A DNA stretch of 52,718 nucleotides, taken from NCBI GenBank assembly GCA_023512255.1, contig JAILZY010000019.1, positions 1 to 52,718 of the forward strand, in the 5' to 3' direction. The position numbers and the translations under genes were made by a program. The notes under the pieces were generated by a model. That model had not been told where the DNA came from, did not search any database, and saw only the letters and a list, made by a program, of their open reading frames with translations. Below, in pieces: positions 7,173 through 40,574 of this stretch (the first letter of the stretch is position 1; the number at the start of each line of letters is the position of its first letter). This DNA comes from a bacterium (GTDB taxonomy: Bacteria; SZUA-182; DTGQ01).

Positions 7173-7329
7173 GAATTTTTCTCCTCTCTTCTTATGTAGG
7201 CAGTGGGGTTTTGGTAAGATTTAATCTATCTTCTCCACTGATCCTGATAACGAATTGATTGATAATTGCTGTGATATTTGCTTGCTGATATTTGCTATAG
7301 CTTGTGCGAATTTTACTTTTAGTAATTAC

Positions 7330-8308: not shown

Positions 8309-8929
8309 CTATAGCCCCCGCCCAAGACGAATCTCCTGCTCATACTCTCTGACCAGGTCAGGATTTTCTCTCTGAACCTCACTGAAGGCGAGGCTATAGT
8401 CTAGCCTTGGATTGCTCTTCATTTTGGCGGCAATCAGATCGCTCAAAACTTGTCCAGCACTGCCTGAGGCAGCGACATTTTTAGCCCTGGTGGCCCACTC
8501 ACTGAAATTGACTACTCGGGGCAGCTCCTGTAAAAACGAGCAAAACCACTGATACGGGCTCTCATTTTTCCCCTCGGCAAAGGAAAACTCTCTCTCAGCA
8601 TCAAGCTGTTCCATGAATTGAGCAAGCCCCATCCGCTCCCAAGCCGGCAGCAGTTTGCCGGCCGCAAGCTGTTGTGAGATAAACTCTTTGATTTGCTGGC
8701 GCCGAGCGGCCATCTTCTCCCTTTGTCTGGCTTCAGCAAATTCTCTGGCTGCATCACGACGGCCCTGCTCTCTGGCTTCATCAATTTTCTTGGCCGCCTC
8801 ATCAGCTACCTGATTCAGCCGCTCGGAAAACTCCAATAAGCTTGCTTTGAGCTTTTCCTCAAATTCAGTCCTAAGCTGCTCCCGCTCCTGATCGAGGAGA
8901 GCCTTCATTTGCTCCTCGCTATAGGTCAT
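8309..8929 (-). CDS. Scaffold protein from internal in-frame start
   Basis: Within the protease gene, ATG at 8929 (MTYSEEQMKALLDQEREQL, residue 196 of the long form) is preceded by GAAGGAGG with 8 bases of spacing, a better site than that of the full-length gene. Initiation there would give a 206-residue coiled-coil scaffold with the same C-terminus. Mu I/Z and lambda C/Nu3 use this nested arrangement. The predicted coiled coil covers roughly residues 5-100 of the short form. Confidence 0.72.
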   Translation of the reverse strand: MTYSEEQMKALLDQEREQLRTEFEEKLKASLLEFSERLNQVADEAAKKIDEAREQGRRDAAREFAEARQREKMAARRQQIKEFISQQLAAGKLLPAWERMGLAQFMEQLDAEREFSFAEGKNESPYQWFCSFLQELPRVVNFSEWATRAKNVAASGSAGQVLSDLIAAKMKSNPRLDYSLAFSEVQRENPDLVREYEQEIRLGRGL

Positions 8930-9514: not shown

Positions 9515-9609
9515 TTGTTTTTCATCCTCCTTTCTCTTGATTTACCTGATTTGCCTTATCTTGTAGCTTGTCTTGTCCCTTGCCTTGTCCCTTTCTTGAG
9601 TTACCTTAA

Positions 9610-10851: not shown

Positions 10852-10867
10852 ATAGATAACTCCTTAA

Positions 10868-11090
10868 GTCAAAGCTCTATTCATTGCCTTGCCTGCCGTT
10901 CAAAATTATTCAGTGCCTTGGTCTCATTGCCTTGGTCAAAGCTCTATTCATTGCCTTGCCTGCCGTATTACCTTATCTGCCATTGCCTGCCATATAGATA
11001 ACTCCTTAACTCCTTAAGTCAAAATAACTCCCTAGCCAAAAACTATTCTCAATATTCTCAAAAACTATTCATTATTCTCAAAAACTATTC
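10868..11090. repeat. Spacer made of short direct duplications
   Basis: The portal-terminase spacer carries repeated blocks: TCAAAGCTCTATTCATTGCC at about 10869 and again at about 10936, ATATAGATAACTCCTTAA at about 10851 and 10990, and ATTCTCAAAAACTATTCATT twice near 11055-11090, the last reaching the terminase stop region. No gene is seen here. The pattern is shared by other spacers in the window. Confidence 0.75.
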
Positions 11091-12649: not shown

Positions 12650-12782
12650 TCTTGTTATCCTCCAGGTTGTTTCTTCTGCCGGAGCCCCCCTTGACTGCTC
12701 CGGGATAATTCCCCAGATTACAGCAGCTTGCAGCCAAAAACAAAAATGCAGTAAACAAAAATTGCAGCCTAAAACCAGCCTA

Positions 12783-12828
12783 AAACAAAAAAGCCCGGTC
12801 AAACCATTTTCTGGTTTCAACCGGGCTT
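12783..12828 (-). terminator. Rho-independent terminator (minus strand)
   Basis: Stem AAGCCCGGT plus AAACCA at 12791-12806 pairs with TGGTTT plus ACCGGGCTT at 12812-12828. On the minus strand it is followed by TTTTTTGTTTT. It would stop transcripts entering from the right, upstream of the terminase ribosome site, so the prophage packaging operon needs a promoter between here and 12662 or antitermination. Confidence 0.85.
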
Positions 12829-13926: not shown

Positions 13927-16125
13927 ATGAGAAAATTTTTAAGCCACGCAAAACCTCACCTATTTTTTCTGCTTCAATTAGCCATTCTCAGCTTGGTCGG
14001 CTTTCAGCTTACCTCGCCCTGCCTTGCCGACACCAATGTCGGCGGCTATATCAGGACCAACACTGTCTGGACCGCGGACAAAAGCCCCTATGTCCTAACC
14101 AGCTCAATCATTGTCAACCCTGGTGTAACCCTGACCATTCACCCTGGGGTTGAGGTCAGGCTAGATGAAGGCAAGGGCATTCAGGTAGATGGCACCCTGA
14201 TCGCCCGAGGAACAGAGCAGGCTAAGATTATATTTACCAACAGCACAGTGAATAAACCTTGGGGATACATCTTATTTACCGATAGCAGTCAGGATGCCCG
14301 CTTCGATAATAAAGGCGCTTATGTCGACGGCTCGATCCTGGAATACTGCATTGTGGAGTATGCTAATGGCAAAGACAGAGAAGGAGCTATTGTCTGCGAA
14401 AAGGCCTCACCCTTTATTAACTATTGTCAGATCAGAAACAACGCCACCTCAGGTCTAAGGGTAAAGGCCGCATCCGGTCTGATAGTAGCCAATAGCACTA
14501 TAGAAAAAAATACCTCATCCTCTAATGATGGTGGTGGAATTAAGGCTACTGACAATAGCTCGCTGACCATTACCTCATGCGCTATCAGCAATAACACAGC
14601 AAGTGGCTCTGGCGGCGGGGTATATTGCTCCTCTGGCACTTTGACCATAAATTCAAGCCAGATCAGCAATAACACAGCAAATAGCTCTGGCGGCGGGGTA
14701 TATTGCTACGCCTCCTCCTCCTCTGGCACTTTGACCATAACTTCAAGCCAGATCAGCAATAACACAGCAAATGGCTCTGGCGGCGGGGTATATTGCTACT
14801 CTGGCACTTTGACCATAACTTCAAGCCAGATCAGCAATAACACAGCAAGCCGCGATGGCGGCGGGGTATGTTGCGACTCTGGCACTTTAACCATAACTTC
14901 AAGCCAGATCAGCAATAACACAGCAAGTGGCTCTGGCGGCGGGGTATATTGCTCTGGCACTTTGACCATAACTTCAAGCCAGATCAGCAATAACACAGCA
15001 AGCCGCTCTGGCGGCGGGGTATGTTGTTCCTCCTCCTACTCTGTCACTTTGACCATAAGTTCAAGCCAGATCAGCAATAACAAAGCAAGTGGCGACGGCA
15101 GCGGGGTATATTGCTACGCCTCCGGCTCTTACTCCTCCTCTGTCATTTTGACCATAACTTCCTCGGTCATCAGCAGCAACACGGCCTCTAACACCAGCGG
15201 CAATGCTCAGGGTGGTGGAATTTGGGTCAGCAACGGCAATAAGGTTCAGATCTCCTACAGCTTGATTATGGATAATTCAGCCAATAAGATGGCGGCTATG
15301 TATTGCCAAGGCAGCGGCTCAGGTAGCTCCTTAAAGCTTGTCGGCAATACCTTTGTCGGCAATAAGGGGAGTGGTGAGGCTTTCTATATCACAAAATTTA
15401 TCAGCTATACTATTAATCACAATAATTTCTGCAACCAAAACATCAAATATGAGTTCTATCGCGATGATCCTTCAACCTCATCAGTAGCTGATGCTGCCCA
15501 AAACTACTGGTGCACAGAGGATGAAAATGAAATTAGCGAGCGGATTTTTGACTTTTGGGACGACAGCAGCAAGGCTCGGATAGAATACTACCCCTTCCTG
15601 ACAGTGCCAGATCCGAATGCTCCCCTGCCTACATTCTATAAAGACAGCGACCAGGATAACTACGGAGATACCAGCCAAGCTGTCCAGGCGCTTGAGGCTC
15701 CCCAAGGCTATGTGAATATCCCTGGAGATTGCAACGACCGGAACAAAGACATCCACCCCGGAGCTCCTGAGCTTTGCAATGGGCTAGATGATGACTGTGA
15801 TGGTCAGGTGGATGAAAACCTGACCCAGCTTTGCCCGGATGGTAAAACCACAGCCACCTGCCAGAATGGTCAGTGGATTGGCTGCTCCACCACCCCACCG
15901 CCTCCCCCTCCGTCAATCCTTTGCGGTGATGCCGATGGCAACGGCAGTGTGGATATTGGCGATGCCCTGCTGATTGCCGAGTATGATGTCGGCCTAAAAA
16001 GTTCATCACAACTGCCTGGCTTTAAGGGCTGCGATGTCAATAAGGATGGGGTAGTGGACCTTTGCGATGCTCTGATGATCGCTGAATACGATGTGGGTCT
16101 TGTCCAAAAGCTTGAATGCAAATGA
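13927..16125 (+). CDS. Secreted beta-helix protein with MopE-like motif and dockerin
   Basis: A 732-residue protein with AAGGAG before ATG 13927. Residues 1-35 are a signal peptide (LFFLLQLAILSLVGFQL, ending in CLADT). Residues ~40-560 form a right-handed parallel beta-helix, with eight near-identical units of the type LTITSSQISNNTASGSGGGVYC between residues 213 and 435. Residues ~568-631 are the putative metal-binding MopE-type motif (DSDQDNYGD, GDCNDRNKDIHPGAPELCNGLDDDCDGQVDENL in pieces). A Pro-rich linker follows. Residues ~664-728 form a dockerin with two calcium loops, DADGNGSVDIGDAL and DVNKDGVVDLCDAL. It is likely exported and bound through the dockerin to a cohesin such as the next gene's product. 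Confidence 0.85.
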   Translation: MRKFLSHAKPHLFFLLQLAILSLVGFQLTSPCLADTNVGGYIRTNTVWTADKSPYVLTSSIIVNPGVTLTIHPGVEVRLDEGKGIQVDGTLIARGTEQAKIIFTNSTVNKPWGYILFTDSSQDARFDNKGAYVDGSILEYCIVEYANGKDREGAIVCEKASPFINYCQIRNNATSGLRVKAASGLIVANSTIEKNTSSSNDGGGIKATDNSSLTITSCAISNNTASGSGGGVYCSSGTLTINSSQISNNTANSSGGGVYCYASSSSGTLTITSSQISNNTANGSGGGVYCYSGTLTITSSQISNNTASRDGGGVCCDSGTLTITSSQISNNTASGSGGGVYCSGTLTITSSQISNNTASRSGGGVCCSSSYSVTLTISSSQISNNKASGDGSGVYCYASGSYSSSVILTITSSVISSNTASNTSGNAQGGGIWVSNGNKVQISYSLIMDNSANKMAAMYCQGSGSGSSLKLVGNTFVGNKGSGEAFYITKFISYTINHNNFCNQNIKYEFYRDDPSTSSVADAAQNYWCTEDENEISERIFDFWDDSSKARIEYYPFLTVPDPNAPLPTFYKDSDQDNYGDTSQAVQALEAPQGYVNIPGDCNDRNKDIHPGAPELCNGLDDDCDGQVDENLTQLCPDGKTTATCQNGQWIGCSTTPPPPPPSILCGDADGNGSVDIGDALLIAEYDVGLKSSSQLPGFKGCDVNKDGVVDLCDALMIAEYDVGLVQKLECK
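14563..15232 (+). repeat. In-frame tandem repeat in the beta-helix gene
   Basis: Eight units of about 75-100 bases with nearly invariant cores (ACTTTGACCATAACTTCAAG, then CCAGATCAGCAATAACACAG). All length differences are multiples of three and are confined to short Ser/Tyr/Ala-coding inserts (TCC/TCT/GCC codons) between units. The high nucleotide identity suggests recent expansion or gene conversion. Confidence 0.9.
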
Positions 16126-16153
16126 TAGGGTATTCTAAGAGGAGGTGATCTTG

Positions 16154-17353
16154 ATGATGAAGCTAATAAGGTCAAAGGCAAGGTCAAAAGCGAGCTTGAA
16201 AGTCTCGGCTTGGTTACTGCTTTGCAGTCTCTGCTTAGCCCTGGGCAGCTTACCTTGTGGCCCCCGCTGGTTTTTGGGGGCCGCGGACCTTTGGGCAGCT
16301 TATAACAATGCTGCCTTCTGGGCAGACGGGGCAGGGCAGAAGGTGAGCACGCTAAGCGTGTCAAAGGGTGATGAGATTCGGCTGATACTAAAGGCTGAGG
16401 TGCCAGCCTCAAAGGTCTTGCGGCTTTATAAATTCACTGTCGGCTACGATCAGAAGCTGGTGTCTGTGGTTGAGGCCAAAAAGCCGGAAGGAAACAGCTT
16501 TTCTGGCTCTATCAGCACCAAAACCGCAGGCGAGGTGGTATTTAATGGCTTTAGCACTGATGGAGTGAGCGGCCCGACCACAGTCAGCCTGCTGGAGCTG
16601 AAGCTTAAGAGCTTGGCCACGGGAAGCCTTAGCCTGAGTGCTCAGGTGAATAACTTTGGCTACGATGGTGGGGATCAATTCCCACCCACTATGCAGGCGG
16701 CCCAAATCAGCATTGAAGAGGGTGGGATCATACCTCCTCCCCAGCCGCCCCAGTGCAGCGAGGATGATTCAGGAGCAGTGGACATTCAGGGAAGTAAGGG
16801 AAGAATAGGGGGTGTGGCTCGAATTGTGGTCAGGATTCAGAATGCCCCTGATAAGATTGCCGCACTTGGCCTGAGAGTCAAGTATGATCCTGCGGTGTTC
16901 GAATATTCAGGTTTTGAGCCGGGAGAATTGACCAGATCGTTTGATCAGTTTAATGTCAATCCTGATCCTGATAGCCCCGGCCAGCTTATCATCGGAGGGC
17001 TGTCTACCGCCAGCAGCCTTGCTCAGGGGACAAGCGGCAGTCTGGTAGAGCTGAAATTTAAGGTCAAGGGCGGCCAGGAAAATCTGTGCTATAACTTCCA
17101 GGTCGAGAAACTGAAGGATGATATCGCTAGATTTTCCGCCAGCGGAGGCTGCTTCTGTATCAAAACCTGCAATGGAGACCTCAACGGGGATGGACAAATT
17201 ACTCCGGTTGATGCTCTGACTGCCTTCAAGTGCTATCTGAAATTAGGCCCCTGCCCTGATTGCACTGATGTTACTGAAGATGGTGAGGTTACTCCGGCTG
17301 ATGCCCTGTGCATATTCAAAAAGTATCTTGGCTTTCAATCCTGCCTGGATTAG
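16154..17353 (+). CDS. Secreted cohesin-dockerin protein
   Basis: A 399-residue protein started at ATG 16154, 8 bases after GGAGG. Residues ~1-45 include a signal peptide (SAWLLLCSLCLALGSLPCG). A first cohesin-like domain follows (VSTLSVSKGDEIRLILKAEV ... VVFNGFSTDGVSGPT). The second, at about residues 200-330, is clearer (IGGVARIVVRIQNAPDKIAALG, VKYDPAVFEYSGFEPGEL, LVELKFKVKGG). The C-terminal dockerin has two calcium loops (DLNGDGQITPVDAL and DVTEDGEVTPADAL). It starts 28 bases after the beta-helix gene, so the two are probably co-transcribed. A protein with both modules could link dockerin partners and be linked itself, like a small scaffoldin. No carbohydrate-binding or glycoside hydrolase domain is present, so a non-cellulosomal role is likely. 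Confidence 0.85.
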   Translation: MMKLIRSKARSKASLKVSAWLLLCSLCLALGSLPCGPRWFLGAADLWAAYNNAAFWADGAGQKVSTLSVSKGDEIRLILKAEVPASKVLRLYKFTVGYDQKLVSVVEAKKPEGNSFSGSISTKTAGEVVFNGFSTDGVSGPTTVSLLELKLKSLATGSLSLSAQVNNFGYDGGDQFPPTMQAAQISIEEGGIIPPPQPPQCSEDDSGAVDIQGSKGRIGGVARIVVRIQNAPDKIAALGLRVKYDPAVFEYSGFEPGELTRSFDQFNVNPDPDSPGQLIIGGLSTASSLAQGTSGSLVELKFKVKGGQENLCYNFQVEKLKDDIARFSASGGCFCIKTCNGDLNGDGQITPVDALTAFKCYLKLGPCPDCTDVTEDGEVTPADALCIFKKYLGFQSCLD

Positions 17354-27034: not shown

Positions 27035-28402
27035 ATGTTTCAGATAATCAACACAAAGCACGATCACGATGCCGATCATGATCGGGAGCCTCATTCTGAT
27101 CGGTCAGCGGCCGCGGCCCTGGCCACAAACTCTCAAAAAGCAGAGTCTTTCTACTGCCTGTCGCTAGCGGTCTTGTGCCATTGGCTGTCTATCTTTGATA
27201 GTAGGCCGAGGCTTAGTTGGCCAAATGCCCACCATCATGACCAGCGCTTTGATTCACTCCGGTTGTCCTGCGCTCCGCTCTGGTTGTCCTGCGGCCATCA
27301 GGCTCAATATGCCCAAGGTCTGGGTGCTAAGCATTATTCTAACTATTTATCCCCGGCCCAAAGTCTTGATTATCCGGCCAGCAGGTTGTGCGATCTTAAG
27401 AGTCCATATACTAAGGCCACATCGCTCTATCGCCAGACTCTGGAAATTAGGGAGAGTCATCTTGGCTCAGATTATCCTGATGCGGCCAGAGATCTCGACC
27501 GTATGGCTATGCTCTACTACATTCAGGGTAAATACGTCGATGCCGAGCTACTTTACCGCCGGACGCTGGCCAAGCTAAGGCAACTCCTTGGGCCCGATCA
27601 TCCTACCATAACCAATACGCTTATTGGCCTGGCTACGGTCTGCTTCACTCAGGGCAAGTATAAAGAAGCCGAGCAGCTTTATCAGCAGGTTTTAGCCATA
27701 AGGGAAAAAAACCTTAATCCAGACCATCAGGATATAGCCGCAAGTCTCAATAACCTGGTCAGGCTCTATAACCTTCAGGGTAGATACCAAGATGCCTTGC
27801 AGCTATCGAAGCGGGTTTTAGCCATCAGGGAGAAGGCCTTTGGACCTGATCATCCGGGGGTGGCTCAAAGCCTCAACAATTTGGCAGAACTTTATTGCAG
27901 TCAGGGAAAATATACCGAAGCAGAGGAGCTACACCGGCGGGCACTAGCCATCAGAGAAAAAACCCTTGGTCCAACGCATCCTGACCTTGCTCAAAGCCTT
28001 AATAATCTGGCTGCACTCTATAGTATTCAGGGAAGATATACCGAAGCAGAGGAGCTGCACCGGCGGGCACTAGCCATCAGAGAAAAAACCCTTTGTCCAA
28101 CGCATCCTGACCTTATCCAAAGCCTCAATAATCTAGCCGCACTCTTCTATAGCCAAGGCAGGTATGAAGAGGCAAAGCAGCTTTGCAGACGGATTTTGGC
28201 CATCAGGGAGAAAACCCTTGGCCCAGACCATCCTGATATGGCCGCCTGCCTCGAAAGCTATGCCGATCTTTTGCGCAAGAGCGAAGACCAAAAGAGCGAA
28301 GAGGCCGAAAAAATCAAAGCCCAAGCCGCGGCTATACTGGCTAGGGGCCTCGGCTGGGGCCAGCAGAGCATCAAGAGGAAAAATCGGCAGACTAAAAAAT
28401 AA
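27035..28402 (+). CDS. Kinesin-light-chain-type TPR protein
   Basis: A 455-residue protein whose C-terminal ~320 residues are seven 42-residue TPR units of the type YTEAEELHRRALAIREKTLG followed by PTHPDLAQSLNNLAALYS. Units five and six are nearly identical in DNA as well (27917-28042 and 28043-28168). The first ~115 residues contain no TPR and are odd in composition (HDHDADHDREPH, many Cys/Trp/Ser), and no ribosome site precedes ATG 27035. The true N-terminus may therefore be different or frameshifted. TPR_12 arrays usually act as protein-binding scaffolds. It follows the two membrane proteins by 12 bases and is likely co-transcribed. Confidence 0.75.
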   Translation: MFQIINTKHDHDADHDREPHSDRSAAAALATNSQKAESFYCLSLAVLCHWLSIFDSRPRLSWPNAHHHDQRFDSLRLSCAPLWLSCGHQAQYAQGLGAKHYSNYLSPAQSLDYPASRLCDLKSPYTKATSLYRQTLEIRESHLGSDYPDAARDLDRMAMLYYIQGKYVDAELLYRRTLAKLRQLLGPDHPTITNTLIGLATVCFTQGKYKEAEQLYQQVLAIREKNLNPDHQDIAASLNNLVRLYNLQGRYQDALQLSKRVLAIREKAFGPDHPGVAQSLNNLAELYCSQGKYTEAEELHRRALAIREKTLGPTHPDLAQSLNNLAALYSIQGRYTEAEELHRRALAIREKTLCPTHPDLIQSLNNLAALFYSQGRYEEAKQLCRRILAIREKTLGPDHPDMAACLESYADLLRKSEDQKSEEAEKIKAQAAAILARGLGWGQQSIKRKNRQTKK

Positions 28403-30987: not shown

Positions 30988-31755
30988 GTGATCGAATTTT
31001 CCATCAGACGAAGCATCCGCAAGACTGTTGGCATTCTTGTTCATCCGGTCAGGGGTGTGATCGTCAGCGCTCACCCTAATCTTAGCCTTAAGGAATTGCG
31101 GGCAATTGTGCTCAAGCGGGCAGAGTGGATCATCAGGAAACAAAATCTGTTAAAAAATAGCGCCACCCTTCACCCTACCAAAAGATTCGTTGAGGGCGAG
31201 CAGCTCTGGTATCTTGGAAAGCAATACCCCTTGCGCATCACCAATGATAAGCATGATAAGCATTGTAAGGAGAAGCACTCTTGCCATGGCGCAAGTGAGC
31301 ACTACTGCACTAGCAGCAATCTTTTGCCCACAATCACCTTTTCCGGTGAGGCATTTTGGATTTTCCTTCCCCCTGGAATCAGGCAGAAAGAGCAAGAGGA
31401 ATCACTTCTCCGCTCAGCTCTTGTGCGCTGGTATTCGGCTCAGGCCGAAGCGCTCATTCGGCAGCGAATTGAAATCTACCGCTCGGCAGTAGCGACTTCA
31501 CATCCCCTCATCGTCCGGGTCCGTCAGCAGAAATGCTGCTGGGGAAGCTGCACAGCCAAAAATGCTCTTCATTTCAACTGGAGGCTCATTCTCTCACCCT
31601 TGCCGATTATCGACTATGTGGTCGTTCACGAGCTTTGTCATTTGAAAATAAAAAACCACTCTCGGCAGTTCTGGAGCCTGGTTGGCTCGATTATCCCTGA
31701 TTATAAAGAGCGAAGAGCTTGGCTTCGACAAAATGGCCGGCAGCTGGATATTTAA
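30988..31755 (+). CDS. YgjP/WLM-type zinc metallopeptidase (DUF45)
   Basis: A 255-residue reading from GTG 30988. The core matches the YgjP/DUF45 family: IEFSIRRSIRKTVGILVHPVRG, LKRAEWIIRKQ, then CCWGSCTAKNALHFNWRLILSPLPIIDYVVVHELCHLKIKNHSRQFWSLV with the HExxH-like HELCH and the distal His of NHSRQFW. Reading upstream in frame gives more plausible family sequence (QEKLYRVKFGHQV) from an ATC at 30943 that lies 7 bases after AGGAG, so the true start may be the non-standard ATC. There is an unusual His-rich insertion at residues ~80-115 (KHDKHCKEKHSC). Confidence 0.85.
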   Translation: MIEFSIRRSIRKTVGILVHPVRGVIVSAHPNLSLKELRAIVLKRAEWIIRKQNLLKNSATLHPTKRFVEGEQLWYLGKQYPLRITNDKHDKHCKEKHSCHGASEHYCTSSNLLPTITFSGEAFWIFLPPGIRQKEQEESLLRSALVRWYSAQAEALIRQRIEIYRSAVATSHPLIVRVRQQKCCWGSCTAKNALHFNWRLILSPLPIIDYVVVHELCHLKIKNHSRQFWSLVGSIIPDYKERRAWLRQNGRQLDI

Positions 31756-31934
31756 CCTGCCAAGAAAAAAGTGGGTATTCCCTTCCCTAAATCACTCCTT
31801 ATTCTTGAATCACTCCTTAGTTAACGTTCCCCATCTTTTGTGGGAGGCTTATATACTCTCCTTTTATAAGTATTTGATATTTTTGAATATTGCTAGATTT
31901 TCAGGCCATTGTCCTGGGGTAGGAAATTGCCAGA
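31756..31934. other. Gene-free spacer before the RAM/trp cluster
   Basis: No supportable gene. It holds the stutter AATCACTCCTTA repeated near 31786-31823 and low-complexity TTTTG/TCTTTTGG runs further right (about 31990-32045). Confidence 0.5.
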
Positions 31935-31979
31935 TTGACAGGGTTGGTAACAATAAGATATACTCTTTGTCTCAAAGAG
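31935..31979 (+). promoter_or_regulatory. Promoter with operator-like palindrome
   Basis: TTGACA at 31935-31940, an 18-base spacer and TATACT at 31959-31964. Overlapping its downstream edge is CTCTTTG-TCT-CAAAGAG (31963-31979), a 7-bp inverted repeat at the expected start point. It is about 105 bases upstream of the RAM-domain gene and is the only good promoter seen before the trpC-trpF genes. Confidence 0.72.
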
Positions 31980-32083
31980 AATCTGAGGTGTTTTTGTCTT
32001 TTGGTGTTTTTATCTTTTGGTTTATATTTGTCTTTTTTTATATTATGGTGCTTTCCCGATAACATAGAAGGAGCCATTAGAAT

Positions 32084-32365
32084 ATGATCACGGCACTGGT
32101 AATGATTGATTGTGAGATGGGTAAGGTTCATCAGGTGGCCGAAGAGCTGGTCAACCTGGATGGTATTGCTGAAGTATACTCTGTATCTGGCGAGCATGAT
32201 ATCATGGCCATTATTCGGGTAAAGGAGTATGATCTGCTGGCTAAGCTGGTATCACAGGATATCGCTAGCATCAGCGGCATCACCAAGACAAGCACTCATA
32301 TGGCCTTTCGCTGCTACTCAAAGCATGATATGGAGAGAATGTGGTCGGATTTTCTGGGAACGTAA
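32084..32365 (+). CDS. Stand-alone AsnC/Lrp ligand-binding (RAM) domain protein
   Basis: A 93-residue protein with AAGGAG 12 bases before ATG 32084. The whole length is an AsnC-type RAM domain: ALVMIDCEMGKVHQVAEEL, VYSVSGEHDIMAIIRVKEYD, ISGITKTSTHMAFRCYS. The DNA-binding domain of Lrp is absent. Such single-domain proteins bind amino acids and can modulate full-length Lrp proteins or enzymes. It is placed 12 bases before trpC in the same operon, so a sensor for an aromatic or related amino acid controlling this cluster is a reasonable guess. Confidence 0.85.
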   Translation: MITALVMIDCEMGKVHQVAEELVNLDGIAEVYSVSGEHDIMAIIRVKEYDLLAKLVSQDIASISGITKTSTHMAFRCYSKHDMERMWSDFLGT

Positions 32366-32377
32366 GGTGAAAACAGC

Positions 32378-33169
32378 ATGACCCAGGTGGGTGAGCGTCG
32401 TCAGCCTCATCAGGCGGGTACTGAGGCGGATGGGAAGCTAAAGTCTCAAGGGGGGAAGCATCTGCTCTCTAGGGCGATTCTAAGAGCGAAGGAGCGGGCT
32501 GAGATCCCGCTCATAGCTGATATCAAACCTATTTCTCCCCGTGATGGTGATCTGATGAAGCAGCGTAACCCTCGAGAGCTAGCCAGGGCGCTGGAGCGAG
32601 CCGGAGCCTGCGCTCTTTCAGTAGTAACCGAACCAAAGTATTTCGGCGGCCAGCTCAGGATGCTGGCCGAGGTTGCCCAGGCAGTCTCAGTGCCGGTTCT
32701 GAGGAAGGATTTCATCTCTTCAGCCGAGCAGATTGAGGAGTCTGCCGCCGCTGGTGCAGCTGCTGTTCTCCTCATTTTAGCCACGATCCCGGACGTTCTC
32801 CTACCCGATCTCTATCAGCGGACGATCGAACTTGACCTAGAAGCGGTGCTTGAAATCCACACTCGCCAAGAGCTTGAGCAGGCACTAGCTCTTTCTCCCC
32901 CTCCGACTATTATCGGTATCAATAACCGGGACATCCGAAACCTTGAAAAGGACTGCGGCACGGTGCGTCTGACCGAAAAGCTAGCTCCGCTAATTCCAGA
33001 CTCAGTGGTAACTATTTCTGAAAGTTCGCTGCGCACGCCTGAAGATATGAGGCGGGCTCTTGATGCTGGAGCAGATGCGGTGCTTGTGGGAACAGCCATT
33101 CTGCAATCGGATGATCCGGCTGGCCACCTTGCCGATTTGCTCAGCCGAATCAGAGGAGCAGGCCGATGA
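32378..33169 (+). CDS. trpC: Indole-3-glycerol-phosphate synthase
   Basis: A 263-residue TIM-barrel protein. Seen: PLIADIKPISPRDGDL, VTEPKYFGG, VPVLRKDFISSAEQI, LEAVLEIHTRQEL, IGINNRDIRNLEKD, VTISESSLRTPEDM and ADAVLVGTAIL. Mapped to characterised IGPS enzymes, the general acid/base set is kept as Lys50, Lys110, Glu159, Asn182/183 and Ser216. The Glu of the usual AEIK motif is Asp48 here (ADIK), and ESGI is ESSL. It would convert carboxyphenylamino-deoxyribulose phosphate to indole glycerol phosphate. It overlaps trpF by 4 bases (ATGA). No trpA, trpB, trpE or trpG lies in the window. Confidence 0.85.
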   Translation: MTQVGERRQPHQAGTEADGKLKSQGGKHLLSRAILRAKERAEIPLIADIKPISPRDGDLMKQRNPRELARALERAGACALSVVTEPKYFGGQLRMLAEVAQAVSVPVLRKDFISSAEQIEESAAAGAAAVLLILATIPDVLLPDLYQRTIELDLEAVLEIHTRQELEQALALSPPPTIIGINNRDIRNLEKDCGTVRLTEKLAPLIPDSVVTISESSLRTPEDMRRALDAGADAVLVGTAILQSDDPAGHLADLLSRIRGAGR

Positions 33170-33849
33170 CCAGGGTCAAGATCTGTGGCCTCATGAGCCG
33201 CACCGACATTGATATGGCTGTGGCCGCGGGAGCTGATGCCCTTGGCTTTGTTACCGAGTATCCCGTGCCTGTGCCCTGGAACCTCGATCGGAATAGGGCT
33301 GCCGAGCTAGTGGCTCAAGTTCCGCCTTTTGTAACCACAACGGCTGTTGTAGGTGGCTCGGTAAAGGACATGGTTGACATAGCCCTTTGGGTCAGACCTC
33401 ATTTTCTACAGCTCCACGGCGATGAAACCATAGAAGAGATTCGGGCTGTATGTCAGGCGCTAGGAGGCACAGGCATCAAGGTCTTGAAGGCTCTTCGGAT
33501 TGATGTGGATAGCGGCCAGGCCCGCTTCTCCCATCCTGATCCCATAGAGGCCTGCCGCCTATTGGCCAAAGTTGGCTTAGCCGGGCTAGTGATTGATTCC
33601 AAAACCTCCAGTCGACCAGCAGGCACAGGAGTTACGCTGGATTGGCAAAGGCTGCGAGGTGTGTCAGCCACTATCTCACTGCCCCTGATCCTGGCCGGAG
33701 GATTGAATGCCCAGAATGTCGGCCAGGCTATTGCTGTGGTGCGGCCCTATGCGGTTGATGTGATCAGCGGCGTAGAAAAGGAGCCGGGGGTAAAGGATGG
33801 GCAATTGATGCGCGATTTCGTCAAGGCCGCCAAAGAGGCCACAGGCTAA
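33166..33849 (+). CDS. trpF: Phosphoribosylanthranilate isomerase
   Basis: A 227-residue protein. Seen: TRVKICGLMSRTDIDMA with the catalytic-type Cys7, AAGADALGFVTEYPVPVPWNL (bacterial homologues usually have a shorter FYPKSPR-type loop here), VRPHFLQLHGDE, GLVIDSKTSSRPAGTGVTLDW containing the general-acid Asp, and PLILAGGLNAQNV. It catalyses the Amadori rearrangement of N-(5-phosphoribosyl)anthranilate. The altered PVPVPWNL loop is in the substrate-facing half of the barrel. Translation is coupled to trpC by a 4-base overlap. A spacer of about 106 bases with duplicated TATATGGGTNTAATGAA separates it from the RibD-C gene. Confidence 0.86.
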   Translation: MTRVKICGLMSRTDIDMAVAAGADALGFVTEYPVPVPWNLDRNRAAELVAQVPPFVTTTAVVGGSVKDMVDIALWVRPHFLQLHGDETIEEIRAVCQALGGTGIKVLKALRIDVDSGQARFSHPDPIEACRLLAKVGLAGLVIDSKTSSRPAGTGVTLDWQRLRGVSATISLPLILAGGLNAQNVGQAIAVVRPYAVDVISGVEKEPGVKDGQLMRDFVKAAKEATG

Positions 33850-33955
33850 GGATGGCCAAAAATAGACAAGCTTGCGGGGGCGATCATCAGCATCTGCGGT
33901 ATTATATGGGTGTAATGAATATTTATATGGGTCTAATGAAGATGAATAATAGAGA

Positions 33956-34666
33956 ATGGATAATAGGGATATGAATAGACCCTACACTTTTATGCTGGTA
34001 GCTGTCAGCCTGGATGGGAAGATCTCCCCTCGGCGCCGTCCCGGACAGCCCAATCCCATCGGCCCATCCCTAATCAATCCTGAGATCATGAAATTACATA
34101 ATTCACAACGAGCCAAGACAGATGGCATCATGGTAGGGCTAAACTCCATCCTGCTCGATGATTCTCGTCTGACCCTACGGGATCAGGCCGAAGGCCGAAA
34201 TCCTACCCGTATTGTGCTAGACGGCCTGGCCGAGATTCCGCTCACAGCCAGGGTGCTGAACTGTCAAGAGGCTCCAACCATTATCGCCGTAACCAAAGAT
34301 GCACCGGCTGAGCGGGTCAAAGCCTTCCAAGAGCGCGGGGCACAAATAATAACCTCTGGCCGTGGCCGATATGTGAACCTGCCGCATCTAATGCGCACCC
34401 TGTATGAGCAGTTCGGAATCAGGCGCCTTTTGGTTGAAGGCGGTGGCACGGTTCATCAGTCGATGATCGCCGCTGGCCTCTATGACGAGCTTCATCTGAT
34501 TATCTGCCCCTTTGTCATCGGCGGATCATCCTCTATCAGCCCGGTGGAAAGAAGCTCTTTCTGGCCGAAAGGCCAGGTGCCGGTATTCAAACTTGATAAG
34601 GCTGAAGTACTTGGCGACTATCTGTATGTGATCTATAAACCAGGAGAGATTTCTGGCAGGCAGTAG
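33956..34666 (+). CDS. RibD C-terminal-type reductase (DHFR family)
   Basis: A 236-residue protein. Seen: YTFMLVAVSLDGKISPRR, HNSQRAKTDGIMVGLNSILLDDSRLTLR, NPTRIVLDG, GIRRLLVEGGGTVHQSMIAAGLYDELHLIICPFVIGG. This is the RibD_C fold, which uses NADPH to reduce the ribosylamino-pyrimidinone to a ribitylamine in riboflavin synthesis. The deaminase half of RibD is absent and no other rib gene is in the window. Its position between trpF and a divergent trpD therefore points to a related reduction on another N-ribosylated substrate, or to an orphan riboflavin step. The start is ATG 33956; ATG 33971 (MNRPYTF) is possible. Confidence 0.82.
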   Translation: MDNRDMNRPYTFMLVAVSLDGKISPRRRPGQPNPIGPSLINPEIMKLHNSQRAKTDGIMVGLNSILLDDSRLTLRDQAEGRNPTRIVLDGLAEIPLTARVLNCQEAPTIIAVTKDAPAERVKAFQERGAQIITSGRGRYVNLPHLMRTLYEQFGIRRLLVEGGGTVHQSMIAAGLYDELHLIICPFVIGGSSSISPVERSSFWPKGQVPVFKLDKAEVLGDYLYVIYKPGEISGRQ

Positions 34667-34720
34667 CGGGACAAAAAATGAGATAGGTAACACTCAATAA
34701 TTAATTTAACAAAAGTGAAG

Positions 34721-34883
34721 TATACTCGTTCAAGTTAAGTTTTGATTGGCATGAATATTGATAATCACGTCAATGAACATATTTTTTATGGTAAATTAAA
34801 TACAATATTGAAATAAACTATAAATTTTCACCAAAATAGCTAATCAAAAATCGTGCCTAGGAAAACCAAAGTTGAAGCACTAT
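34721..34883 (+). repeat. Repeat C, copy 1 (with inverted ends)
   Basis: Matches 47569-47729 over about 162 bases (shared stretches: CAATGAACATATTTTTTATG, AATATTGAAATAAAC, ATAAATTTTC, CCAAAATAGCTAATCAA). The left end TATACTCGTTCAAGTTAAGT and the reverse complement of the right end TATAGTGCTTCAACTTTGGT are imperfect inverted repeats, as expected of a MITE. It lies just upstream of the trpD-like gene. Confidence 0.85.
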
Positions 34884-34912
34884 ACACCTAATATAGTTTA
34901 AGGGAGCATGGT

Positions 34913-36028
34913 ATGGAAACAAAAGAAGATCGGTGGAGGAAATTTGGAGCCATTGTTGTTCGGCTGACACGGGGTGAGAATATTACCAGAGAGGAGGCGC
35001 GAGAGTGCTGGAGGCAGATCTGTGAAGAAGAGCAGAGTGATTTGCAGCAGGGTGCCTTTATTGCCGCGCTCCGCGCCAAGCCTGAGACACCAGAAGAGGT
35101 GGCCGGCACCTTCGAGGCTCTCTATGAGTATGATACCTTGAAGGTGAAGGTGAATACACCCGAGCCCCTGATCGACAATTGCGGCACAGGCGCCGATACC
35201 TTGAAAACGATGAATATCAGCACCGGTGCGGCTATCATCGCCGCTTCCCTGGGGCTGTATGTGGTTCGACATGCGGCCCGAGCCATTTCATCCAACTGTG
35301 GAGCCATTGATGTCATCGAGGCCTTGGGGATAAATGTTGAGTCTGCCCCTGAGGTCCCGAAAAAGAGCATCGAGCAGGCAGGCATCTGCGCCTGGAACGC
35401 CTTTTTACCCACCGTGCATCCGAAGACCTTGGCCAGGGTCCTTTCGCAGATAAGGTTCGGCTCAACCATCAACCTAGTAGGGCCACTGCTCAATCCCACC
35501 ATGCCGACCTTCAAGGTCATGGGTGTACCTAACCAGCAGATGATCGACATTGAAGCCAAGACCTTGCGGGAGCTTGGATTTAAGAGAGCTTTTGTCATGC
35601 ATGGCCTGGATGATGAATCGGGCAAGGGGATGGATGAGCTCTCTACCCTTGGAGTAACCCATGTGGCTGAGCTGGCTGAGGATGGAACGATTGAAAATTA
35701 CAGCCTGACCCCTGAGTATTTTGGCTTAAAGCGGGCGAAATTCGAGGACATTGCTTCAAGCCGTAATGTGCACCAAGATGCCCTCAGCCTGCTACGGGTA
35801 CTAGCTGGCAAAGATAGCGGCCCACGGTTTGACATAATCTGCCTGAATGCTGCCCCTCTGCTCTACATTACCGGCAAGGCCAAAGACCTGCGTACAGGAG
35901 TTGAGATGGCCAAAAGTGCTGTAGCCGATGGCCGGGCTTTGAACAAGCTGCGGGAGTGGGTCAGGTGGCAGAATGAAAAACCAGAAGATGGCTTGCCGAA
36001 GCTTGAAGCCATGATCAACCAGCTTTGA
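34913..36028 (+). CDS. Anthranilate phosphoribosyltransferase-like protein, divergent
   Basis: A 371-residue protein with AGGGAG before ATG 34913. It keeps the TrpD fold: N-terminal helical domain, MNISTGAAIIAASLGL, SSNCGAIDVIEALGI, PTVHPKTLARVLSQIRFGSTINLVGPLLNP, and MDELSTLGVTHVAEL with the metal-binding Asp-Glu. Signature positions differ from normal enzymes: the PRPP loop GTGGD is GTGAD (91-95), and KHGNR is RHAAR (119-123), which removes the Asn that contacts anthranilate. The aromatic acceptor may thus not be anthranilate. It lies with trpC, trpF and a RibD-C reductase but after repeat C copy 1, so it may be transcribed separately. Confidence 0.83.
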   Translation: METKEDRWRKFGAIVVRLTRGENITREEARECWRQICEEEQSDLQQGAFIAALRAKPETPEEVAGTFEALYEYDTLKVKVNTPEPLIDNCGTGADTLKTMNISTGAAIIAASLGLYVVRHAARAISSNCGAIDVIEALGINVESAPEVPKKSIEQAGICAWNAFLPTVHPKTLARVLSQIRFGSTINLVGPLLNPTMPTFKVMGVPNQQMIDIEAKTLRELGFKRAFVMHGLDDESGKGMDELSTLGVTHVAELAEDGTIENYSLTPEYFGLKRAKFEDIASSRNVHQDALSLLRVLAGKDSGPRFDIICLNAAPLLYITGKAKDLRTGVEMAKSAVADGRALNKLREWVRWQNEKPEDGLPKLEAMINQL

Positions 36029-36126
36029 GTATAATTTTGAGTATAATTAATCTATGAGTATTAATTAATCTGATTGATCTAACCACACAAAGATTCAAGG
36101 AAAACAGCACCTAAGAGACACCATTT

Positions 36127-38343
36127 ATGAAAGTACGGTATTCAAGCTGCTATTTTTGCACCAGCAAGGGCTGCGCCATGAAGGTCATGGTTGATGGGGA
36201 GCGGATCGAGCGAGTAGTCGTTGATACCAAAGCCCCAGTTACTCCGGAGGGCTTCTGCGTGCGGCCAACCCTGGCTAGGGAATATCAGGAGCACCCTTTT
36301 CGGCTAAACTATCCCTTAAAACGCCGAGCAGAGCGCGGGGCCAATCAGTGGGAGGAAATCTCTTGGGATCAGGCCTTCGATGAAATTGCGGCTAAACTTG
36401 CTAGCATTCGCCAGCGCTACGGTGCAGAAAGCCTGGCTACCAGCTCAGGTACAGGCCGAGGGGCGTGGGATTTTGCCAAAAGCCGGTTCATGAACCTGTT
36501 TGGCAGCCCGAACCGTTTTGGCGCGGTTACGATATGCTATGGACCGCGCAGCATGGTCTGGTTCACTACCTTTGGCGGATCAGTTGTGCCGGACCAAAAA
36601 CCTGACAAGACTAAGCTGGCCGTGCTCTGGGGCCGCAATCCCCATGAGGGGGGACCTTCAACCTGGCACAGCTTTAAAAAGGCAAAGCAATTTGGCGCTC
36701 GGACCATGGTTGTTGATCCCCGCTGCACTGAGCCAGCGCGGCAGGCTGACTGGTGGGTACAGCTAAAGCCCGGCACCGATGCTGCCCTGGCCCTTGGGCT
36801 AATGCAGGTTATCATTGAAGAGGGGCTCTACGATCGGGAATTTGTTGATAGCCACACCTTTGGCTTTTCCCAGTTGAGGGAGCGAGTCAAGGAGTATCCT
36901 CCTGAGCGGGTAGCTAAAATAACGGGCTTGTCTGCCTGGAAGGTGAGAGAAACAGCGCGCTTTTTGGCTGCTCACCAGCCATCGACCATGGTCATTGGCG
37001 TGGCTGCCGAACACAGTGCCCCAAACAGCATTCAGTCCGTTCGGGCCATCAATCTTTTGTTTGCTATCGTCGGCAGCATCGACCGAGAGGGAGGCAACCT
37101 GATCACAGGACCCTGCTCAGGATTCATCCCTGATGCAGCCATGGAGCTAAACCATATGCTCTCGCCCCAGCAGCGGGCAAAACAAATCGGAAGCGATCGC
37201 TTTCGGCTGCTGAGCTACCCCGGCTGGGAACTCGTTGAAGAGCAGATGCGCAAAAAATGGGGGGAGCGGCATCCTGCGGCAGTCTATCTAAACTGCCTGG
37301 CTCACGCGCCTAGCGTATTCCGAGCCATGCTGACTGAAAAGCCTTATCCGGTGAAAGCCCTCATTGTGACGGCAAGCAATCCCCTTCTCTCATACCCTAA
37401 TACCGGCCTTGTCTACAAGGCGCTTTTAGCTACTGAGCTTCTGGTAACCTTCGATATCACCTGGACCCCTACGGCACTGATTTCAGACTATGTGCTGCCG
37501 GCTGCCTGCTGGCTAGAGCGGCCCGATATGGGTAACTTCGCCTCAGCAGGTGCTTATCCCCTGGTGCAGATCGGCGAAGCAGCCTTGCCTGCCCGTGTTC
37601 CGGGCAAATACGAGCGCCTCAATGACTATGAATTCTGGCGTGGACTTGGTCTTCGGTTAGGGCAAGAAGAATACTGGCCGTGGGAAACCTTCGAGCAGGT
37701 CTGGGAATACCGGCTGCGGGAAATCATGGATCGCCGCGAAGTCAAAACGCTTTCAGAATTCATCCATCAGCAGCGCTGGGAGCTAGATACTCCCAAAGCC
37801 GGCTTGTGTAGCCAGGGGCCTCTAGCAACCCCATCCGGCAAGGTGGAGCTCTACTCTACTATCTTCGAGCGCCTCGGCTATGATCCCCTGCCAGACTACC
37901 TAGAGCCGGACAAATTGGATGATGAGACCAGGCGCCAATATCCACTCCTCAATATCAGCGGCTGTCGGACCATTCCCTTCCATCACAGCGAATTTCGCCA
38001 TGTTCAGGGATTTCGCCGCCTACATCCTGAGCCGATTGTCGAAATCCATGTAGACCTTGCCCGCAGAAAAGGCATTGCCGATGGTGACTGGGTCTGGATC
38101 GAAACCCCACTTGGCCGAGTGAAGCAGCGGGCTCGGCTGACCACATCATTCAATCCTGGCTATATCAGTACTCAACATGGCTGGTGGTTTCCAGAGATGC
38201 CGGCCGAGCAGCCCTCACTCCACGGGCTGTGGGAGGCAAACATCAATGTAACCATTGATGATGACCCTGAAAAGTGTGATCCTATCTCTGGCGGCTGGCC
38301 CCTCAAGGGACAATACCTCCGCTGTCGCATCAGGAAGGCATGA
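36127..38343 (+). CDS. Molybdopterin (Mo/W-bisPGD) oxidoreductase, catalytic subunit
   Basis: A 738-residue protein. A [4Fe-4S] site is formed by Cys8, Cys11, Cys16 and Cys44. The probable Mo/W ligand is Cys137 in TICYGPRSM. Typical family segments are EISWDQAFDEIAAKL, VVDPRCTEPARQADWWVQLKPGTDAALALG, EKPYPVKALIVTASNPLLSYPN, LISDYVLPAACWLERP and LATPSGKVELYS, and a C-terminal molydop-binding domain with QHGWWFPE. Overall it recalls the acetylene hydratase/thiosulfate-reductase-like branch, but the catalytic Asp next to the second Cys of acetylene hydratase is Thr12 here. It has no Tat signal, so it is cytoplasmic, and no electron-transfer or membrane subunit adjoins it. Confidence 0.9.
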   Translation: MKVRYSSCYFCTSKGCAMKVMVDGERIERVVVDTKAPVTPEGFCVRPTLAREYQEHPFRLNYPLKRRAERGANQWEEISWDQAFDEIAAKLASIRQRYGAESLATSSGTGRGAWDFAKSRFMNLFGSPNRFGAVTICYGPRSMVWFTTFGGSVVPDQKPDKTKLAVLWGRNPHEGGPSTWHSFKKAKQFGARTMVVDPRCTEPARQADWWVQLKPGTDAALALGLMQVIIEEGLYDREFVDSHTFGFSQLRERVKEYPPERVAKITGLSAWKVRETARFLAAHQPSTMVIGVAAEHSAPNSIQSVRAINLLFAIVGSIDREGGNLITGPCSGFIPDAAMELNHMLSPQQRAKQIGSDRFRLLSYPGWELVEEQMRKKWGERHPAAVYLNCLAHAPSVFRAMLTEKPYPVKALIVTASNPLLSYPNTGLVYKALLATELLVTFDITWTPTALISDYVLPAACWLERPDMGNFASAGAYPLVQIGEAALPARVPGKYERLNDYEFWRGLGLRLGQEEYWPWETFEQVWEYRLREIMDRREVKTLSEFIHQQRWELDTPKAGLCSQGPLATPSGKVELYSTIFERLGYDPLPDYLEPDKLDDETRRQYPLLNISGCRTIPFHHSEFRHVQGFRRLHPEPIVEIHVDLARRKGIADGDWVWIETPLGRVKQRARLTTSFNPGYISTQHGWWFPEMPAEQPSLHGLWEANINVTIDDDPEKCDPISGGWPLKGQYLRCRIRKA

Positions 38344-38470
38344 GATGGCGAATTAAAAAATACTATACTTTTCGCTTTTTCTCTGAACCCTTGATTTTAC
38401 TAGGCCCTTGATTTTACTAGGTTTGATATGAAAGATAACTTTCAAAAATTTCAAGACATGGAAAGATTTA
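38344..38470. repeat. Spacer with perfect 17-base tandem duplication
   Basis: CCCTTGATTTTACTAGG occurs twice without a gap (38388-38404 and 38405-38421). The spacer between the molybdo-enzyme and MFS genes (38344-38719) holds no gene, only this and repeat B copy 2. Confidence 0.9.
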
Positions 38471-38594
38471 TCCTGAAATCCAGAGCGATCACCTGAAAAG
38501 CTTTATATTCCAGAATATTAAACTCACACATTTTGTGAAAGTTAGCTGATTGATTTTAAAATGTAATCTGGCATTCTCTCTGGCATAAGATTTA
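38471..38594 (-). repeat. Repeat B, copy 2 (reverse orientation)
   Basis: Reverse complement of 24451-24570 over about 120 bases with scattered substitutions; includes CTGAAAAGCTTTATATTCCA and CACATTTTGTGAAAGTTAGC. It is in the spacer upstream of the MFS gene and carries no reading frame of note. Confidence 0.85.
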
Positions 38595-38719
38595 GGCAAA
38601 AGTGTAGCAAATATCCCGCTCGCCCCAAGGAGCGGACTTTAGTAGAAGGGGTAGGCTTCTGCGGCAGGAAGGCTGTACAGAGGAAGGCTATAACTTATGA
38701 AAGATATGAAAAATAGGGC

Positions 38720-40054
38720 ATGAGCAAAAGTGAGAATCTAGCAGATACACCCACAGAAGCCCTTCGCTACCGCTGGCTTATTTTCTCCATCCTAGCTCTC
38801 AGCTACATTCTAGTCTACTTTCATAGGCTATGTCCAGCCGTTGTGGCTGAGGAGATGATGCACGATCTTAAGGCCAGCGGAGTTTTGCTGGGGCTTCTTG
38901 GCTCAGCCTATTTTTACCCATACGCCCTGATGCAATTGCCAGCCGGACTGCTTGCTGACTCATGGGGACCACGAAAGACCATGGCCACGTTTTTCATCGC
39001 TGCTTGCCTGGGTTCGGTTATCCTGGGCAGGGCACCATCGCTTTTTTGGGCTATGGTCGGGAGAACCTTAGTCGGAGTTGGAGTATCGGTACTCTTTGTG
39101 CCTACCATGAAGATTCTGGCCGAGTGGTTTGATCAGAGGGAATTTGCTACCATGGCTGGCATCCTGATCGCTATGGGTGGAGTCGGATCAATTACGGCCA
39201 CAACTCCACTGGCTTACTTGAGTCGGGCTGTAGGCTGGCGCAGCTCCTTTGTCATTGTGGGGCTGATCACTCTGGCCTTGGGGATTTTGCTCTGGCTCAT
39301 CGTCAGGGATCGGCCTGAGGATCTGGGCTGGCCATCAGTCCATGCGGCGTCGGCCTATGCTGGTACTGTTGTTGAGCAGTCTCCAGGCAGAAGCAACCTA
39401 TGGCAGGGGGTGAAAAGGGTGCTAGGCTGTGTATTTTTTTGGCCCCTGGCTATTTGGCTTTTCTTCGGCTGTGCAGTATTTTTTGCCTTCATCGGACTAT
39501 GGGGAGGCCCATACCTCATGCACGTCTATGGTCTGAGCAAACCGCAGGCAGGCAATATCCTGATGATGTCAGCCATCGGGATGGTGGTCGGAAGCCCTCT
39601 TTTGAGTTTTCTTTCAAACCGGCTGCTCAAGGGAAGAAAGCCTGTACTAGTTATGGCTAGCGGGATGACAGTTCTCATAACCGCGATTTTGACTACTTTC
39701 ACTGACCGGCTCCCCCTAACATGCCTATATCTGCTCTGCTTTTTCACCGGCATATTCGCTAATGCCATTGTGGCTGTAGGTTTCACAGCCACCAAGGAAC
39801 TTTTCCCAGTCAGCATGGCCGGAACATCCACTGGGTTAGCTAATTTTTTCCCTTTCCTGGGCGGAGCCCTCCTTCAGCCCCTCATGGGATATCTGCTTGA
39901 GCAGCAGGCCAGATGGAGTGGGCCAAACAGTCGCACCTTCACCCCAGCAGGCTATCGCCATGCCTTTGCTGCCATGCTCATCTGGGCCATGATCGCTTTC
40001 GGAGCCAGTTTGTTCATCAAAGAAACATTTACTGAAAAAAGGCAGAGGGTATGA
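38720..40054 (+). CDS. MFS transporter
   Basis: A 444-residue protein with about twelve membrane helices. The start of the family pattern is ILALSYILVYFHRLCPAVVAEEM, followed by GSAYFYPYALMQLPAGLLADSWGPRKTM (the DxxGxR loop between helices 2 and 3) and VLFVPTMKILAEWFDQREFATMAGIL. The second half has GSPLLSFLSNRLLKGRKPV and a final FAAMLIWAMIAFG helix. This pattern resembles organic-acid or phosphate-ester symporters of the MFS. It follows the molybdo-enzyme on the same strand after a repeat-containing spacer and may move its substrate, which is inference from location. Confidence 0.88.
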   Translation: MSKSENLADTPTEALRYRWLIFSILALSYILVYFHRLCPAVVAEEMMHDLKASGVLLGLLGSAYFYPYALMQLPAGLLADSWGPRKTMATFFIAACLGSVILGRAPSLFWAMVGRTLVGVGVSVLFVPTMKILAEWFDQREFATMAGILIAMGGVGSITATTPLAYLSRAVGWRSSFVIVGLITLALGILLWLIVRDRPEDLGWPSVHAASAYAGTVVEQSPGRSNLWQGVKRVLGCVFFWPLAIWLFFGCAVFFAFIGLWGGPYLMHVYGLSKPQAGNILMMSAIGMVVGSPLLSFLSNRLLKGRKPVLVMASGMTVLITAILTTFTDRLPLTCLYLLCFFTGIFANAIVAVGFTATKELFPVSMAGTSTGLANFFPFLGGALLQPLMGYLLEQQARWSGPNSRTFTPAGYRHAFAAMLIWAMIAFGASLFIKETFTEKRQRV

Positions 40055-40076
40055 AGTGAAATGGAAATAAGCTTGG

Positions 40077-40574
40077 CTATTTTATATCCTCGCCGGTTGA
40101 TTGAATTTTGATCTTATTGTCTTGCATATAGGCCCTGATTCTTCTTTCATGATTTTTATCTTCTTTATTCAATTTTTGCAGGGTCTTTAAAATTTCAGAT
40201 CCTTCGGTCTGCTCCATCGCCTTCTGAAAATGGAGCTCACCGGCAAATCTCTCAACCATCAGGGCAGTATTAAATGCAGTCTCTCTTGAAGGGGGATGTG
40301 ATGAAAACTCAGCGATCATCTGCTGAAGATGACGATTGACATCCACCAACGGCGGCAGTGAATCGCAAATCAGCTCTAGCGGAAATCGATCAGCATCAAA
40401 AAAAGCATCTCGCGCCGCTTTCAGCAAAGAAGAGTGGTTTATCTCCTCCATCTTCAACGTCCACCAAAAGTCTTTATCTTCTTCAAAAAATTGACAAAAC
40501 AATCCATATAGCTCAGAAACATTTAGTTCGAGAGCAATTGATTCTTCTATAATTTTTTCAAGTAGTTCGGCCAA
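40077..40574 (-). CDS. Rubrerythrin/ferritin-like diiron protein
   Basis: A 165-residue helical protein. Ligand-like residues appear in the expected order for a four-helix diiron bundle: Glu residues in IEESIALELNVSELY, ExxH in KMEEINHSSLL, a Glu pair in VERFAGELHFQKAM, and a second acidic/His pair in NKEDKNHERRI. There is no rubredoxin-type C-x2-C domain, so it is ferritin-like only. It may take part in peroxide or iron handling. It is convergent with the MFS gene with 22 bases between their ends, and 22 bases separate it from the HTH protein upstream on its own strand. Confidence 0.75.
   Translation of the reverse strand: MAELLEKIIEESIALELNVSELYGLFCQFFEEDKDFWWTLKMEEINHSSLLKAARDAFFDADRFPLELICDSLPPLVDVNRHLQQMIAEFSSHPPSRETAFNTALMVERFAGELHFQKAMEQTEGSEILKTLQKLNKEDKNHERRIRAYMQDNKIKIQSTGEDIK

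Follow-up and report, generated by a model that had tools for sequence, protein, structure and literature searches.

A tryptophan operon covers the route from chorismate to tryptophan, with trpE/G and trpA/B in addition to the genes of the TrpD-TrpF-TrpC segment, and the PriA isomerases (PMC13055916) are an earlier example of a trp/his isomerase taken into specialised metabolism. This study considered a gene cluster in which three tryptophan families occur in a different setting. The window, meaning the whole stretch of 52,718 nucleotides analysed here, is one entire contig (C133) of a bacterial genome of 3.83 Mb in 172 contigs (96.6% complete). Within it, genes for a stand-alone RAM protein, an indole-3-glycerol phosphate synthase (IGPS)-like TrpC2, a PRAI-like TrpF2, a RibD_C-type reductase (RibDC2), a TrpD-family TrpD2, a molybdopterin enzyme (AHL) and an MFS transporter follow one another. 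As the sequence-only reading had described, all seven genes are present and intact in this order on the + strand, and no trpE, trpG, trpA or trpB was seen among the window's larger open reading frames; the cluster is thus not a tryptophan operon in the above sense.

A dedicated pathway paralogous to the tryptophan route

The canonical tryptophan genes of the window's genome are located elsewhere, as a trpE-G-D-C-F run on contig C79 and a trpB on contig C117, so the second trp set that the sequence-only reading had suggested looking for does exist. In a complete chromosome (G016), trpE-G-D-C-F-B-A lies at ~0.65 Mb and the cluster at 2.70 Mb, and canonical TrpD is present in 7/9 cluster hosts. 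Similarly, a canonical ribD-ribE-ribBA neighbourhood was found on contig C161 of the window's genome, and RibDC2 and canonical RibD are both present in eight of the nine hosts; with no rib neighbours and a canonical RibD elsewhere in the genome, RibDC2 does not correspond to the RibD of riboflavin synthesis.

Outside the window's genome, the seven-gene order is repeated in full in the congener G002, amid unrelated flanks (identities of 76-91%). A collection scan with TrpD2, which used two strict peptide patterns, returned eight further orthologs (75-82% identical) from metagenome-assembled genomes (MAGs) labelled Phycisphaerae, Desulfobacterales, Candidatus Desulfatibia vada, Syntrophobacteria, Deltaproteobacteria (two) and Gammaproteobacteria and from the chromosome CP070719. 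The complete order RAM-trpC2-trpF2-ribDC-trpD2-AHL was found in five of these eight (L017, L019, L022, L023, L024); a sixth (L020) starts at a contig edge with trpF2 and is consistent in order up to that edge, and in the L021 genome two contig ends (L044, L045) carry the first four genes and trpD2-AHL, respectively. The small phylum of G016 adds two more complete copies (L053/L054) and a partial one. The cluster is therefore not a chance assembly, because the congener keeps all seven genes amid other flanks and distant anaerobic lineages keep six. Contamination of the MAGs is an unlikely source, given the congener with its different flanks and the complete chromosome that also holds the cluster. 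Combined, the separate canonical trp set and the conservation of the neighbourhood in distant lineages, a recurrence that the sequence-only reading had proposed to look for, establish the cluster as a dedicated pathway paralogous to the tryptophan route and not as dispersed trp genes.

The sequence-only reading had itself offered the alternative of a split trp pathway joined to an orphan rib gene. The enzymes do still match the trpC/F/D families, and TrpD2 scores above the TIGR01245 cut-off (289 bits, versus 423 bits for the canonical TrpD of the same genome). An ordinary or dispersed pathway is nevertheless ruled out by the separate trpE-G-D-C-F and trpB and by the chromosome carrying both sets, and with canonical RibD also encoded separately the alternative was abandoned. 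Redundant trpC/F/D copies serving ordinary tryptophan synthesis beside an orphan rib gene are likewise hardly credible, as the acceptor residues are altered in all orthologs and the RibD_C and AHL genes are constantly linked to the cluster across lineages.

The distribution of the cluster is rare and patchy. As lower bounds, TrpD2 orthologs were counted in 2/395 and 2/395 genomes of two overlapping Desulfobacterota samples, in 1/392 genomes of the phylum of the Phycisphaerae MAG and in 4/12 of the phylum of G016, and trpC2 was counted in two of the nine genomes that represent the window's own phylum in the comparison set. Across seven hosts (congener pair left out), the cluster proteins are 54-83% identical (TrpD2, 73-83%), whereas the canonical TrpD proteins of those same hosts are 41-55% identical. 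Because of this higher identity, the patchy distribution and a slightly higher GC content of the cluster in the window (52% vs. 46% in its flanks), the sequence comparisons point to horizontal spread of the six genes as one unit. A plasmid- or phage-borne unit was considered and rejected, with no TrpD2 found among plasmids (best match ~35% identity) or in viral contigs. Purifying selection on the cluster genes is strong, with dN/dS (the ratio of nonsynonymous to synonymous substitution rates) of 0.06-0.15 between the two congeners.

The cluster membership proposed earlier stands for the first six genes, which recur together; the MFS gene was restricted to the window's genus (G000, G002) among the loci examined and is accessory, outside the conserved core. 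The type of the 3' transporter differs by host, as the window's genus has the MFS gene, L054 a TrpX-type ABC transporter (PF04392, with NF041285 scoring under its cut-off) and L020 an amino-acid-type binding protein. These transporters bear on an uptake explanation, in which an aromatic compound would be imported, hydrated, hydroxylated or reduced by AHL and then phosphoribosylated and converted by TrpD2, TrpF2, TrpC2 and RibDC2 for salvage, detoxification or catabolism and not for the synthesis of a new cofactor. Several hosts do have a transporter gene 3' of the cluster, different in type each time, and the enzyme of known structure closest to AHL has an unusual small molecule as its substrate; however, most hosts have no adjacent transporter, a RAM sensor and the use of phosphoribosyl pyrophosphate (PRPP) are typical of biosynthesis, and no coenzyme A ligase, ring-cleavage or hydrolase gene is a constant neighbour, making this explanation unlikely. 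No further constant neighbour gene of any kind was seen in the flanks read at the loci.

Residues kept and replaced in TrpD2, TrpF2 and TrpC2

TrpD2 (34913-36028, + strand) keeps the PRPP and Mg residues of the TrpD family (GTG, D95, N101, S103, D241, E242), with GTGGD reading GTGAD. In all TrpD2 orthologs aligned, A122 stands in place of the Asn of KHGN and L177 in place of the Arg of VRKELG. We take positions 122 and 177 to be the equivalents of the anthranilate contacts N109/R164 of S. solfataricus and N138/R193 of M. tuberculosis, and the 55-residue spacing of these contacts fits the TrpD alignment. The sequence-only reading had called trpD divergent and suggested comparing each enzyme with bona fide trp enzymes by phylogeny; in the tree made for TrpD, TrpD2 forms its own clade (support 99/99), apart from canonical TrpD.

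TrpF2 (33166-33849, + strand; PRAI, E=9e-30) keeps the catalytic Cys7 and Asp126 and has an insertion of ~12 aa. Every ortholog aligned has P or W (motif PWN) in place of Arg36, the contact to the anthranilate carboxylate. TrpC2 (32378-33169, + strand; IGPS, E=4e-58) has no N-terminal lid helices, as the IGPS profile is matched only from position 41 and residues 1-25 of the structural model are mostly below 50 in predicted local distance difference test score (pLDDT). The model as a whole has a pLDDT of 88 and is matched by Foldseek to IGPS structures including the N-terminally truncated 2c3z, and the equivalents of K53, K110, E159, N180, E210 and S211 are kept, with E51 changed to D in all eight orthologs aligned.

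Because the Asn and Arg of TrpD2 and Arg36 of TrpF2 are replaced in every ortholog examined, the alignments speak against anthranilate as the TrpD2 acceptor and make an ortho-carboxylated acceptor less likely. The earlier proposal is thus supported in part: the dedicated pathway is retained, and an aminoaromatic acid as acceptor and an indole or ribityl-arylamine as product stay hypothetical.

A sister clade, TrpD3, shares the altered acceptor residues of TrpD2. A Desulfobacterota search at a looser threshold found six such proteins, 41-44% identical to TrpD2, and one more (39% identical to TrpD2) was found in the phylum of the Phycisphaerae MAG. TrpD3 also has in common with TrpD2 an insert before the Mg-binding DE and terminal extensions. 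The tree resolves TrpD2, TrpD3 and canonical TrpD into three distinct groups, each well supported; N122A/S, R177L, R183G and K119R separate the first two from the third, with the PRPP-site residues GTG, N101, S103, D241 and E242 fixed. A gene for a Zn-dependent (MDR) dehydrogenase precedes TrpD3 in 6/7 loci, and cobT follows it in four of the seven (L064, L065, L068, L069), with cobS after cobT in three of those four and further cob genes in two; one neighbourhood (L067) is obscured by overlapping reading frames. In L064, the dehydrogenase-TrpD3-cobT operon is located directly 3' of a full trp operon. In PMC8620254, trpD and cobT are mentioned only apart.

The dehydrogenase-TrpD3-cobT arrangement, found together with the same acceptor-site changes, favours a cobamide explanation, in which TrpD2 and TrpD3 would take a benzimidazole-type or related base precursor as their substrate and the six-gene operon would make or activate a lower ligand or an analogue of one. 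Against this, TrpD2 and TrpD3 share just 41-44% identity in Desulfobacterota, two TrpD3 loci (L066, L055) have the dehydrogenase and no cobT nearby, and the flanks read show no cob gene beside the six-gene operon; the explanation is improbable for the cluster itself. For TrpD3, the neighbouring cobT opens a further question, independent of the cluster, on cobamide-linked chemistry.

Proposed pathway

We consider it fairly likely that the six genes are a horizontally transferred functional unit which runs the middle of tryptophan biosynthesis on another acceptor as a dedicated pathway. The operon probably makes or processes a compound not yet named, and the RAM protein probably controls the pathway. 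We infer the chemical steps, their order, the RAM-TrpD2 link and the metal as follows. With PRPP as the donor, TrpD2 would place phosphoribose on an aromatic or heteroaromatic amine that is not anthranilate, TrpF2 would yield a 1-amino-1-deoxyribulose 5-phosphate through an Amadori rearrangement, and TrpC2, as a lidless IGPS barrel, would close a ring. The RibD_C enzyme may use a pyridine nucleotide to reduce an intermediate of phosphoribosyl type, AHL as a Mo/W enzyme may supply the acceptor or finish the product, and the RAM protein may sense the end product and restrain TrpD2. For the product, we tentatively suggest a previously unknown phosphoribose-derived N-heterocycle, a cofactor or cofactor precursor resembling an indole, a pterin or a quinoxaline, formed by TrpD-TrpF-TrpC action on a non-anthranilate acceptor, RibD_C reduction and a Mo/W step; in the same tentative reading, a new family of phosphoribosyltransferases would be made up of TrpD2 and the cobT-linked TrpD3.

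Several points weigh against this pathway. TrpC2 retains residues used in decarboxylative ring closure, and these agree with an ortho-carboxylated acceptor more readily than the TrpD2 and TrpF2 changes do. TrpF2 and RibDC2 would compete for the TrpD2 product unless one of them acts later. The AlphaFold model of TrpD2, made from eight sequences, has a pLDDT of 42 and is too poor for its pocket to be read. One locus (L018) is an exception to the conserved order, with trpD2-AHL, none of the other four genes nearby and no RibDC match in the MAG; trpD2 is here directly behind rpiB-glyA-comEB-nrdR (L018:2749-7452), a slot that we take to be the usual position of ribD. Finally, for the control of anthranilate phosphoribosyltransferase by a RAM protein in response to tryptophan, which is the background from Thermus, no paper was found in the open-access literature. 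The review PMC2995911 treats archaeal stand-alone RAM proteins only.

The retained TrpC2 residues also bear on a dihydropterin- or dihydroquinoxaline-like route, in which the acceptor would carry an ortho amine in place of an ortho carboxylate, TrpF2 and TrpC2 would mimic the chemistry of GTP cyclohydrolase I, and RibDC2, of DHFR fold, would reduce the ring. Such a route would agree with the loss of the carboxylate-contact arginines in TrpD2 and TrpF2 alongside kept sugar-phosphate chemistry, and with the handling of diaminopyrimidine ribosides by the RibDC family; it is highly improbable, since TrpC2 keeps its decarboxylation residues.

Three consecutive steps of a textbook amino acid route appear to have been copied, altered at the acceptor site and moved between distant lineages as one block, in which a vitamin-type reductase and a Mo/W enzyme travel along. 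The cluster points to an undescribed metabolite in anaerobes and is a ready test case for the evolution of TrpD acceptor specificity, and the TrpD-RAM pair is offered as a small feedback module.

Locus layout and comparison with known systems

A promoter-like site, TTGACA-N18-TATACT (31935-31964, + strand), is 119 nt 5' of the RAM gene and begins at the position where the sequence-only reading had placed the start of the cluster. With 11/12 consensus matches, it is the top-scoring site within 31700-40300 as judged by consensus match alone. The inverted repeat CTCTTTGTCTCAAAGAG (31963-31979, + strand) overlaps the end of the -10 box and is a possible operator. The trpC2 and trpF2 reading frames overlap by 4 bases, and gaps of 106 nt, 246 nt, 98 nt and 376 nt precede ribDC, trpD2, the Mo/W gene and the MFS gene (38720-40054, + strand; Pfam MFS_1, E=1e-57), respectively; L017 is packed more tightly than the window, with overlaps or gaps of <=2 nt throughout.

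Elsewhere in the window, genes on the - strand at 686-12820 encode a phage tail protein, head-tail adaptor, major head protein, head maturation protease, portal and terminase large subunit, a structural block that looks like a prophage or prophage remnant. On the + strand at 13927-17353, a gene for a beta-helix protein with a dockerin domain comes before one whose product combines cohesin and dockerin domains; the two resemble a cellulosome pair, here in a genome of a little-known phylum. A TPR protein with kinesin-light-chain-like tandem repeats is encoded at 27035-28402.

No description of the cluster was found by keyword in the open-access literature, with subscription journals outside this scope. 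A paper on the benzene 'Magic' cluster (PMC13101534) was considered and set aside, its text being without trp, phosphoribosyl or molybdo terms. The component families are all known; their combination and the altered TrpD clade appear new.

The stand-alone RAM (Lrp/AsnC ligand-binding) protein of 93 aa (32084-32365, + strand; Pfam AsnC_trans_reg, E=1e-15) has as its best PDB match the stand-alone RAM protein of Thermus thermophilus (2djw; residues 1-84, E=7e-15), and in both cases the gene adjoins a TrpD homologue; unlike in Thermus, the partner of the window's protein would be the divergent TrpD2. Another RAM-trpD pair was found in a Gammaproteobacteria MAG (L043:2302-3844), where the RAM-domain gene comes before that of a second TrpD, of the canonical clade and with the motif KHGSR.

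RibDC2 (33956-34666, + strand; TIGR01508, E=1e-45) shares family and length with the archaeal-type 2,5-diamino-6-ribosylamino-4(3H)-pyrimidinone 5'-phosphate reductases, and its nearest solved relatives (6p8c, 2azn) are of this type. Unlike those reductases, it adjoins trp-like genes, coexists with a complete RibD and scores below the TIGR01508 family cut-off (155 vs. 186 bits).

AHL (36127-38343, + strand) has PF04879, PF00384 and PF01568 all above their cut-offs, i.e., the 4Fe-4S, molybdopterin and dinucleotide-binding parts of a [4Fe-4S] molybdopterin enzyme of the dimethyl sulfoxide (DMSO)-reductase superfamily; with no signal peptide seen in AHL, the earlier description of a cytoplasmic molybdopterin enzyme is borne out. 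Its best PDB match is acetylene hydratase (2e7z; 414 bits, runner-up 232), which it matches over its full length with the metal-ligand Cys and the FeS cysteines kept. Unlike acetylene hydratase, AHL has T/S in place of Asp13 in all ten orthologs and Arg in place of Lys48, in a gene context unrelated to acetylene; acetylene hydratase proper was rejected as an assignment, as the replaced Asp13 is the catalytic residue beside an FeS cysteine.

The closest likeness overall is to the TrpD-TrpF-TrpC segment of tryptophan biosynthesis, which has the same three families, with PRPP and catalytic residues kept in the cluster and the TrpC fold supported by the model. The cluster differs from this segment in the altered acceptor sites of TrpD2 and TrpF2, the lidless TrpC2, the additional RibD_C and AHL enzymes and the lack of trpE/G/A/B. 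Compared with PriA, which is a single dual-substrate isomerase of Actinomycetota (PMC13055916), the cluster would represent three consecutive trp steps moved together.

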